From Chrysiogenes arsenatis DSM 11915 (GTDB lineage: Bacteria > Chrysiogenota > Chrysiogenetes > Chrysiogenales > Chrysiogenaceae), in contig NZ_AWNK01000001.1 in the NCBI RefSeq assembly GCF_000469585.1, positions 248,731 through 312,730 on the forward strand: a stretch of DNA of 64,000 nucleotides. The letters are read 5' to 3'. Numbering within the stretch: the stretch's first letter is position 1; every line of letters begins with the position of its first letter. A program made the translations under genes and the position numbers. Of this stretch, positions 54,197-57,064 are shown piece by piece. Below the pieces are notes generated by a model, which saw nothing but the letters and a program-made list of their open reading frames with translations, searched no databases and was not told the DNA's origin.

Positions 54197-54382
54197 TTAT
54201 TTCATCTTATCCTCTGTTTTCTCTGATTTTTCCGCATTTACTTTAACTGACCCTTCTGGAGCCGTAGTCGTCGCCGGCAAAGAAACATCGCGCGCATAGT
54301 CCACGCAACGGGAGGGGTCGGCAATGGAAAACTTCTTATTACAGCCGCCACGCCATGCACAGGTCGTACAGGTTTGCGTCAT
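54197..54382 (-). CDS. Small cysteine-containing protein of unknown function
   Basis: The 61-residue protein begins MTQTCTTCAWRGGCNKKFSI and has four cysteines in the first 26 residues (CTTC, C, C), suggesting a small zinc or iron-sulphur site; the C-terminal half is low-complexity and charged. A good AAAGGATAAC ribosome site precedes the ATG, only 3 bp after the upstream stop, so it is the last gene of the signalling operon. I recall small proteins of this type in related bacteria but no family name. Confidence 0.6.
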   Translation of the reverse strand: MTQTCTTCAWRGGCNKKFSIADPSRCVDYARDVSLPATTTAPEGSVKVNAEKSEKTEDKMK

Positions 54383-54385
54383 ACG

Positions 54386-55300
54386 TTATCCTTTCGATTC
54401 AGGAATAGTGGTGATTCTATCGGCATGACGAGCTAGGGTCACGCGGTTCCCTTTTTCGTTATACTGCACAGAATCCATATAGAAAAACGCCATCAAAATG
54501 CCACGTCCGGAGAAGTTGAGTAGGTTTTCTGTGTCGCGTGGATTTGGGACCGATTTCAGATCAAATCCATGGCCACTGTCTTCAATAATAAATGTGAATT
54601 GATTGTCGTCGAAGATATATTCAAAATAAACTCGTTTGGCGATGTTTTCCTGCTGCTTGGCACGAAGGAGATCATGATAGGTATCGCTTCCGATAGAGTC
54701 GAGTTTTTCTTGATATCCGATCCCAAGGTTGCCGTGTTCAATGGCATTGAGCAGGATTTCAAAAACGGCCATACGGATTTCACATGCTACTTTGGGCGAA
54801 CAGTGCACGTTGAGGGTCGGGATAATGGTATTCAGCGCACCTGTGGCAGATTCGACAGTATTATTCAGCCAAAAAACTTTCCGTTCCTGATGGAGTGTCC
54901 GTAGCGCAAGGCTCGTGGCAAAGCTGTGCATGACCCCTTCGGCAAGGCTATTGAGGGCATCGACGAGTTTTTTCTGCTCTATGGGGCTCGGGAAAAACTG
55001 GCTGACGCCACACTCAATGGCGGTCAATAGTCGCGTTTCAGACCCTTGATGCGAGAGGATAACAACAGGCGCTTGCGGAGCTGTCTTATGGATTTTACGG
55101 ACGATGTCCCACCCTTGCTCTTCACTGAGGTGCATTTCGAGGACGACAATGTCCTGCATATTGCTGAGAAAGGAATCGTAGCCTTCGGCGTAGGTCACGG
55201 AGTGCACAACGTAGCCCGCCTGCTCTAAAGAGCAGTTAAGCGCCTGCGCGTCGTGGTTCCAATCGCTATCGCGGATGTAGAGTACGGAACGGTGATACAC
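54386..55300 (-). CDS. Pseudo-receiver protein with RsbW-type ATPase domain
   Basis: The 304-residue protein joins an N-terminal receiver-like domain (1-120) to a C-terminal GHKL ATPase (about 145-295). In the receiver the acceptor aspartate position reads VVLEMHL (Glu55), the conserved Thr is Ser83, and the conserved Lys reads Ser105 in FFPSPIE, so ordinary phosphorylation is unlikely. The ATPase has the anti-sigma type N-box EILLNAIEHGNLGIGY, EDSGHGFD and SGRGILMAF, with no H-box. It may bind a sigma factor or anti-anti-sigma partner, with Glu55 acting as a fixed mimic of phosphorylation. It sits with cheW and an HD-GYP gene on the same strand. Confidence 0.8.
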   Translation of the reverse strand: MYHRSVLYIRDSDWNHDAQALNCSLEQAGYVVHSVTYAEGYDSFLSNMQDIVVLEMHLSEEQGWDIVRKIHKTAPQAPVVILSHQGSETRLLTAIECGVSQFFPSPIEQKKLVDALNSLAEGVMHSFATSLALRTLHQERKVFWLNNTVESATGALNTIIPTLNVHCSPKVACEIRMAVFEILLNAIEHGNLGIGYQEKLDSIGSDTYHDLLRAKQQENIAKRVYFEYIFDDNQFTFIIEDSGHGFDLKSVPNPRDTENLLNFSGRGILMAFFYMDSVQYNEKGNRVTLARHADRITTIPESKG

Positions 55301-55331: not shown

Positions 55332-55847
55332 CTACAAGTTGGCAAACATCTCCATTTCGTCGGCACTAAACAGGCGGTCAATGGCAAGCAGAATCAACAG
55401 GCGGTCGCCGTATTGACAGATTCCAGAAACATATTCACGCTCAGCACGGGCGATGGTAGGCTTCAATTCAATCTGTTTTGCTTTTACTCTTACTACTTCA
55501 CGAACCGCATCGACAATCAATCCGATAAATTTCCCTTTATTTTCGACAATGACAATATTCCCTTCTTTTCCCTGCATGTCAGCTTTTAGAAGGCCAAGTT
55601 TGCGGCGCAGATTGACGATAGGAATAATCGCGCCTCGCAAATCAAGTATCCCCTCAATAAAGGAGGAGCTTTTAGGGAGCGTCGTTATTTTTACTTTTTT
55701 TATAATCTCCCGCACCAATCTGATATCGATCATGTACTCTTCATCTTCAACCAGAAAGCTGACAAACTGAACCATCTCTTCGCTTACATGCTCACCGGCA
55801 TCGTGGAGAGCAGTCTCTGGTGACGGCGATGCGGCTGTCTTTGACAT
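55332..55847 (-). CDS. cheW: CheW-like chemotaxis coupling protein
   Basis: The 171-residue protein is a single CheW domain (MVQFVSFLVEDEEYMIDIRLVREIIKKVKITTLP, FIEGILDLRGAIIPIVNLRRKLGL, VDAVREVVRVKAKQIELKP, YVSGICQYGDRLLILLAIDRL) after a 20-residue Ala/Ser/Pro-rich start. CheW links chemoreceptors to the CheA kinase. No CheA is nearby, so it may serve a distant array, or an alternative pathway with the neighbouring genes. Confidence 0.93.
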   Translation of the reverse strand: MSKTAASPSPETALHDAGEHVSEEMVQFVSFLVEDEEYMIDIRLVREIIKKVKITTLPKSSSFIEGILDLRGAIIPIVNLRRKLGLLKADMQGKEGNIVIVENKGKFIGLIVDAVREVVRVKAKQIELKPTIARAEREYVSGICQYGDRLLILLAIDRLFSADEMEMFANL

Positions 55848-55885: not shown

Positions 55886-57064
55886 TCAGACTCCCCGCAC
55901 TAATACGGAGGGGTTGGCTTCAAGATCAATGGTTATTTCCTGAACATAGCGCGTTTGCGATTCATCTTCGAGTAGTTTTACTATAGGGCGATTGAGCGCA
56001 TAGTGCGATATCTGTGCGACGATGGCACGGCTGCCGCTATAGTGACCATTTTGGACGATAACTTCGCTTCCCAGCGGATAACGTGGCGCATGCCCCAAAA
56101 AGAGACGAACCAGCTCCATATTCAGCCGCGTCCCCGCCAATCGCATAATCATATCGAGTCCCTTATCAAACGGCAAGGGAATGCGATTACGAGAGTCGCT
56201 GGTAAGGGTTACAAACGTATCAACAAGCGCACATATCTCAGCATAAGGATGTATTATCCCTTTCGATTGCATAAGTTCCTTGCCACGGAGGATTTTATTG
56301 CTGCCGGTAATTCCCTGCGGAAATCCCCTTCCGTCCTGATACTCATGGTGCTGATACGCCACTATCGTGCTTAATATCCCGACACGCGGTGTTTTGCGCA
56401 AAATATCGTACCCCACGGTAGTATGTTCCTCTTTGAGGGCTCCCGTGTCGTAAAACTCACCTTCGCTAGCGCCATCATGCTTTTCAGGAACGGGTAAAAA
56501 GAAGAGCGCAACGTCATGCAGCAGTGCACCAAGGGCGAGTTCACCTATTTCTTTCCCGGTCAATCCAGCCGCCTGCGCCAGCATAATACTTAAACACATC
56601 ACGTCGAGCGCATGGTCAACCAAGTAAAGTTCTTCCGAGGCGGCGGGCATGTACGCTATGACTTTTTTGCTGTCTTGCTCTATTTCCCGTTGTGCAGTAA
56701 GTGCGATATATTCGGCCAACTCGATGGCTATCGCTGGCAATGGTTGGCCGCGAAACTGCGCACAATAGTCACTCCACGTCGATTCTGGCGGGCGCGGAGT
56801 TGCTTTGCGAACTTCATCGACTAATTTCGTCATTTTTTTCTGTAAGTCGCGACGAACGCTGTCGCGCAATGGTTCCGTAGGCTCAATGCCCGCCGTTAAC
56901 GGATCGTCAACCATCACCCAATTGAGTTTCATATCGACAAGGCGTTCAATATTTTTTGGCGTGAGCACATATCCGGCGCCGATCAGCATACTATCGCCGT
57001 CAGTCACTACAGGACAGGCTGTTTTCATCCCGGGAAGAATGTTTTGAATCGGCATTTTACGCAT
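55886..57064 (-). CDS. HD-GYP domain protein (probable c-di-GMP phosphodiesterase)
   Basis: The 392-residue protein starts with a DUF3391-like region (MPIQNILPGMKTACPVVTDGD...). The HD-GYP domain covers about 150-320 with LLHDVALFF (HD), TTVGYDILRKTP and the GYP region AYQHHEYQDGRGFPQGI, in which GYP reads GRGFP. Most metal ligands (HD, HH, D) appear present, so it may still hydrolyse cyclic di-GMP, although the altered motif leaves this open. A C-terminal beta-rich region of about 70 residues follows (GSEVIVQNGHYSGSRAIVAQ). It lies upstream of cheW in the same direction. Confidence 0.85.
   Translation of the reverse strand: MRKMPIQNILPGMKTACPVVTDGDSMLIGAGYVLTPKNIERLVDMKLNWVMVDDPLTAGIEPTEPLRDSVRRDLQKKMTKLVDEVRKATPRPPESTWSDYCAQFRGQPLPAIAIELAEYIALTAQREIEQDSKKVIAYMPAASEELYLVDHALDVMCLSIMLAQAAGLTGKEIGELALGALLHDVALFFLPVPEKHDGASEGEFYDTGALKEEHTTVGYDILRKTPRVGILSTIVAYQHHEYQDGRGFPQGITGSNKILRGKELMQSKGIIHPYAEICALVDTFVTLTSDSRNRIPLPFDKGLDMIMRLAGTRLNMELVRLFLGHAPRYPLGSEVIVQNGHYSGSRAIVAQISHYALNRPIVKLLEDESQTRYVQEITIDLEANPSVLVRGV

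Follow-up and report, generated by a model that had tools for sequence, protein, structure and literature searches.

The gene at positions 54386–55300 of the window (the whole 64,000-nucleotide stretch of the Chrysiogenes arsenatis genome that was analyzed) is read here, from its sequence and predicted structure, as encoding a pseudo-receiver joined to an intact RsbW-like ATPase. The combination of a receiver (REC) with an RsbW-like domain is already known, and the new part, as far as sequence comparison goes, is a family whose receiver is degenerate. The protein is probably a regulator of the LvrC/TciR kind in which the receiver would act independently of phosphorylation, in docking or dimerization.

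The gene product and its receiver pocket

The gene lies on the minus strand; a preliminary description, made from the DNA letters, had not given the strand but had rightly recognized a receiver–ATPase fusion. Translation begins at a GTG at 55300 and the stop codon ends at 54386, giving a protein of 304 amino acids. The sequence AAGGAG, a ribosome-binding site, lies 8 bases ahead of the GTG and just six codons are open upstream of it, which rules out a wrong start or a frameshift. Scans for promoters (6 against 5.8 expected) and terminators (8 against 5.0 expected, SD 2.2) were unusable.

The receiver occupies approximately residues 3–120 and the RsbW-like HATPase_c_2 portion approximately residues 139–295. 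Both are above their Pfam cut-offs, Response_reg at residues 18–116 with 44.0 bits (cut-off 30.2) and HATPase_c_2 at residues 165–289 with 55.5 bits (cut-off 27.4). The genome has 73 receiver matches in total, 71 of them over the Pfam cut-off, and the window receiver is the weakest of these 71 (46.4 bits). Structure prediction, which the preliminary description had proposed as a check, indicates that the receiver fold is kept: the AlphaFold model (mean pLDDT 91.5) shows the whole of this fold, with the ATPase after it.

The register of the pocket was set by pairwise alignment of the window protein to 40 relatives that have the acceptor Asp and the Lys. Glu55 falls at the acceptor position in 39 of the 40 alignments, Ser83 at the Thr position in 39 and Ser105 at the Lys position in 38, in full agreement with the three substitutions first proposed, and the predicted strands β3 and β5 end at residues 56 and 104, respectively. 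The agreement of 39 alignments on Glu55 also rules out an alignment slip concealing a true acceptor Asp, a possibility that the preliminary description had raised against itself. The metal-site pair is Arg10-Asp11, with Arg10 in place of the first metal-site acid. A phosphorylatable Asp accompanied by the Lys and the metal-site acids is thus absent from the window protein (Glu55, Ser105 and Arg10), which is recognized as a receiver and is missing the key catalytic residues, as is usual for a pseudo-receiver.

The ATPase, in contrast to the pocket, is intact, as had been supposed. Residues E181, N185, H189, D241, G243, G245, G265 and G267 are the same in all 60 of the sequences aligned; we take them to belong to the N, G1 and G2 boxes, all of whose residues are present in the window ATPase. 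Its profile matches include RsbW and SpoIIAB, which it resembles in this domain and its motifs. RsbW and SpoIIAB, however, are stand-alone proteins with no receiver, encoded in one operon with their STAS and sigma partners, while no STAS or sigma gene is adjacent to the pseudo-receiver/ATPase gene at this locus.

Relatives and the conservation of the receiver

A homologue search covered 59 genomes, counting the window's own, and 53 of them had matches; loci were listed for 30 matches. Among the matches listed, full-length proteins occur solely in the window's own genome and in two others, G001 and G002, whose proteins are each 39% identical to the window protein; the remaining matches listed extend over the ATPase, over a receiver or over some of each. 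Two small genomes (G038 and G040, 1.3 Mb each) yielded neither a homologue nor a STAS domain, a result too weak to interpret, and two genomes that are 86% and 57% complete (G043 and G049) yielded weak matches only.

By ungapped register Glu55 is invariant across the window, G001 and G002 proteins, while the Lys position is Ser, Pro or Asn, the Thr position is Ser, Gly or Ser, and each protein lacks at least one metal-site acid. Other, scattered receiver positions are invariant in all three. In pairwise alignment the G001 register is firm (Glu at the acceptor position in 35 of 40), but that of G002 (L010) is uncertain, the acceptor aligning with D57 in 15 cases, E58 in 10 and D61 in 2, and with nothing in 13 of the 40. 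Thus, to the question of whether Glu55 is fixed among homologues, the family answers yes in ungapped register, with a reservation for G002. Judged by these residues, the receiver is degenerate in all three Chrysiogenes-type genomes.

The search also gave 27 Deferribacterales loci, of which L034 was dropped for a broken frame. All 26 intact ORFs encode this same ATPase, preceded by an N-terminal domain that is shorter. In a model of one of them (mean pLDDT 87.9) the receiver is trimmed and retains two helices at least 4 residues long; the model matches LvrC best (Z 20.9 over 253 residues, rmsd 12.5), and receivers align with its N-terminal part at a Z of about 12. An Asp at the end of β3 is invariant in this group (17/17 in one alignment and 15/15 in another), and Lys is found at the Lys column in 2 of the 26 ORFs, although the domain is so diverged that the columns are uncertain. 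A quick ATPase tree places the window family and the Deferribacterales in separate clades. Independent decay of the receiver in the two groups was considered and dropped, since an AU test keeps the option of a single clade (p = 0.454). In 7 of 11 Deferribacterales neighborhoods (L052, L053, L054, L056, L057, L059 and L060) the counterpart adjoins a gene whose product has an LGTRGT-like start; this neighbor is absent at the other four (L055, L058, L068 and L069). The two such genes that were scanned, L053:8112–8921 (+) and L056:7179–7988 (−), have a metallo-β-lactamase fold.

The invariant Deferribacterales Asp, together with the Asp that directly precedes the Glu in G001 and G002 (IIDE), could mean that these receivers are still phosphorylated, at another acidic residue or through an unusual pocket. 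The window protein, however, has Leu54 at the position of that preceding Asp, all three family proteins have lost the Lys and at least one metal-site acid, and no histidine kinase gene was found in the conserved gene set of the window locus and both relatives, so we consider continued phosphorylation highly improbable.

Wider relatives were found by an alignment-based search (a search with the single protein gave none), and the best 80 of 363 were used, so that the counts are not a census; 18 belong to Deferribacterota and three were dropped (L120, L125 and L130), leaving 59 that were scored. Among these 59 relatives outside Deferribacterota, 39 have the acceptor Asp and the Lys and 35 a fully canonical pocket. 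The prospect that most homologues carry a normal Asp/Lys pair, which had been named as telling against the first reading, is thus true outside the phylum and untrue in the family and in the Deferribacterales examined. Apart from the family trio, Glu occupies the acceptor column in five of the 59 (L100, L110, L114, L119 and L140). Four of these (L100, L110, L119 and L140) are Leptospiraceae ORFs of 435–461 amino acids, L110 being cut by a contig end, in which an RsbW-like ATPase is accompanied by a part with the acceptor-column Glu and without the canonical metal-site pair. Six Bacteroidales REC + RsbW-like proteins (L083, L096, L102, L105, L122 and L136) have Asn as acceptor and retain the Lys. 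In a single quick ATPase-domain tree of 96 rows, made after ten identical rows were removed, at least 11 changes of pocket state are needed, a count that gives no direction, includes some rows from long multi-domain proteins and could be inflated by column errors; it suggests that such change recurs.

Receiver identity was compared among pairs at equal ATPase identity (47–56%); the pairs are not independent and the window family consists of three proteins only. Canonical pairs share 48.6% receiver identity on average (range 37.4–64.3%; 31 pairs, 37 proteins), and for the window receiver against the two relatives the values are 23.7% and 27.0%, with ATPase identities of 50–53%. At the level of sequence, canonical pairs therefore have about twice the receiver identity of the window family when the ATPase identity is matched, and a multiple alignment reproduces the low value. 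Deferribacterales pairs average 29.6% (155 pairs), five other proteins, whose acceptors are mostly Asn or Gly (L123, L124, L126, L129 and L143), are intermediate at 39.5% (4 pairs, multiple alignment), and the Bacteroidales Asn-acceptor proteins average 56.7% (4 pairs). Since these last keep normal receiver conservation, losing the acceptor is not by itself enough to make a receiver diverge; pocket loss accompanies low receiver conservation in the window family (24–27% against a mean of 49%) and not in the Bacteroidales Asn proteins.

Such figures are also what would be expected of a vestigial receiver under relaxed selection, in a protein whose ATPase alone would serve as an RsbW-like kinase or anti-sigma factor: the receiver has diverged this far while the ATPase is still 50–53% identical, and the pocket residues differ among the three family genomes. 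This plain decay would be the main rival to a docking or dimerization role, a stronger one than phosphomimicry by Glu55 (below), but we find it doubtful given that the window receiver is kept with a confidently predicted fold, that the domain is present in all 26 of the Deferribacterales ORFs examined and that the three family proteins agree at scattered positions of the receiver.

Comparison with known regulators

The best PDB sequence match of the window protein is 9QIH (phmmer E = 4.3e-21), which was deposited as SenB, is named LvrC in its Foldseek title and belongs to the LvrB paper. LvrC is also Foldseek's top structural match (E = 3.9e-19). The window model aligns with LvrC at a VIA-align Z of 19.9 over 278 residues, a score tied by single receivers (Z 18–20), and the rmsd of 14.4 indicates that the domains correspond and that their arrangement does not. 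According to PMC13269768, LvrC of Leptospira is an anti-sigma factor that has an RsbW-like domain and is regulated by its receiver, which is canonical, with acceptor D53, and obtains its phosphate from LvrB. The window protein is like LvrC in domain order and length but has no acceptor, no Lys and one metal-site acid fewer, and there is no kinase in its gene set.

TciR of Vogesella indigofera likewise has an N-terminal REC and a C-terminal RsbW-like domain, an architecture that PMC12826045 reports as widespread, and the window protein shares it, with an N-terminal receiver fold and a C-terminal HATPase_c_2 whose motifs are intact. TciR has a cognate kinase, TciK, whereas the window gene lies instead beside cheW and an HD gene. 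The TciR authors state that its species has no RsbV homologue (PMC12826045), and on that account a STAS partner is not general for proteins of the REC + RsbW-like kind. These regulators were characterized only recently (LvrC in 2026 and TciR in 2025), and the two papers are the only on-topic REC + RsbW-like literature among the matches listed. Literature searches on pseudo-receivers with RsbW and on LvrC/TciR-type proteins gave no report of a degenerate member, and the main text of neither PMC4395418 nor PMC12632262 mentions RsbW, anti-sigma or HATPase. The parts of the window protein are themselves known; because this family has lost the pocket but kept fold and ATPase, with canonical relatives alongside, the role of a pseudo-receiver can be asked directly, by comparison with a canonical receiver on the same output domain.

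Asp-less receivers such as ChxR resemble the window receiver in having a receiver fold without the acceptor. The preliminary description suggested that Glu55 might leave the protein constitutively "on", that is, that it mimics phospho-Asp and locks the receiver active, so that the ATPase would be under control only through expression or partner level. Glu is indeed the residue that most often stands in for Asp in Asp-less receivers (26%) and can partly activate many true receivers when it replaces Asp (PMC4395418, PMC12632262), and here it is invariant in the three family genomes in ungapped register. The mimicry, however, "perhaps" works by binding of the conserved Thr and Lys (PMC12632262), which are Ser/Gly/Ser and Ser/Pro/Asn in the family; 70% of Asp-less receivers are reported to retain a basic residue at the Lys position, and the window receiver does not. 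ChxR still bound DNA when its Glu alone was replaced (PMC4395418). Because the Thr and Lys are altered and DNA binding by ChxR survives this replacement, we give phosphomimicry low weight; the uncertain acceptor register of G002 and a receiver identity far below that of canonical pairs also stand against it, and the "on" state now seems poorly supported and quite unlikely. The 2025 review lists protein contacts among the mechanisms of pseudo-receivers and counts the activation and inactivation of bacterial pseudo-receivers among the major unknowns (PMC12632262).

Neighboring genes and candidate partners

Immediately upstream of the pseudo-receiver gene, by 31 bases, is a gene for a 171-amino-acid CheW-like protein (55332–55847, minus strand; PF01584, 117.5 bits), preceded by one for a 392-amino-acid HD-domain protein that is HD-GYP-like with an incomplete motif (55886–57064, minus strand; PF13487 and PF01966). 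Gene ribBA also lies upstream, in the same orientation as these three. On the other side, a 61-codon, Cys-containing ORF (54197–54382, minus strand) begins 3 bases past the pseudo-receiver/ATPase stop. The order HD gene, cheW, pseudo-receiver/ATPase gene and 61-codon ORF is common to all three genomes (the window's, G001 and G002); at L050 the pseudo-receiver gene was absent from the gene calls, which had an opposite-strand ORF there instead, so the gene's position was taken from the other comparisons.

The HD-GYP signature consists of the HD, HDxGK (with its Lys), HHE and DGxGYP motifs. The window HD protein has the HD and HHE motifs, HDVAL in place of HDxGK, and DGRGFP; those of G001 and G002 have HN in place of HD and retain DGSGYP. 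The full set is thus not present, and of the neighbors first described as cheW and an HD-GYP gene, both genes are there and conserved in the relatives but the second does not have the complete HD-GYP motif. Since the HDxGK Lys is missing and both relatives have HN for HD, the HD protein may, on its sequence, be a sensor rather than an enzyme.

A docking or dimerization role for the receiver, the reading that we prefer, is consistent with the retention of the N-terminal domain in the window protein, both relatives and all 26 Deferribacterales ORFs, and with the HD–CheW–pseudo-receiver/ATPase gene order in three of three family genomes; against it, low receiver identity also fits plain decay, and the comparison comprises three family genomes and non-independent pairs. 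Under a docking or dimerization role the receiver fold would be kept while phosphorylation of an Asp would no longer be its working mode, and Glu55 would be an ordinary pseudo-receiver residue rather than an "on" switch. The domain would most likely contact a protein partner, for example the co-encoded CheW or HD protein, both of which are suggested only by the position of their genes. Its contacts would determine when the ATPase acts on a target, by binding or phosphorylating a STAS protein or a sigma factor. The more specific proposal of a CheW-coupled partner switch in Chrysiogenes-type bacteria, in which the pseudo-receiver docks the co-encoded CheW (or the HD protein), we regard as unlikely; if true, an input of chemoreceptor or second-messenger type would be tied to an RsbW-like output, either anti-sigma or STAS-kinase.

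The 61-amino-acid protein, which has no Pfam or NCBIfam match, carries TCxTCAWRxxCxKKFSI and DPSRCxDY stretches and was matched in 15 of 58 genomes. At seven of its Deferribacterales loci (L170 and L172–L177) a tblastn search of the 1.5-kb flanks, which are too short to reach an HD gene, detected neither CheW nor the pseudo-receiver gene, and this weakens a functional link of the ORF to the pseudo-receiver. At six Deferribacterales loci listed (among L170–L177) it is adjoined by an ORF that we presume to be ispF-like.

A search of the genome for STAS partners, as had been proposed, gave seven matches, three of them in ORFs of less than 160 amino acids and none adjacent to the pseudo-receiver gene. 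The usual STAS phosphorylation site motif is D-S-S-G; one of the three short ORFs has it, one has N-S-A-G and one has neither. The genome also has four SpoIIE matches, none in the pseudo-receiver gene set, seven sigma region-4 matches over the cut-off, none linked to the pseudo-receiver gene, and a short RsbW-like protein encoded outside the gene set.

Three further loci combine domains of these types. L061:7076–10487 (+) has a fusion of a STAS domain with HEAT repeats, which comes after a PAS-SpoIIE gene and the short N-S-A-G STAS gene. At L066:7212–10602 (−), in the window genome, ATPase, receiver and SpoIIE matches follow one another in that order in a presumably SypE-like protein, after a gene labeled CheV-like without a Pfam scan. 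This gene looked like a second CheW-type link but was set aside, as its G001 counterpart is about 3 kb away and none was found in two G002 stretches. At L067:4688–9440 (+) a SpoIIE protein is followed by ORFs that we take to resemble SiaB and SiaC, and then by a 586-codon ORF with a receiver match.
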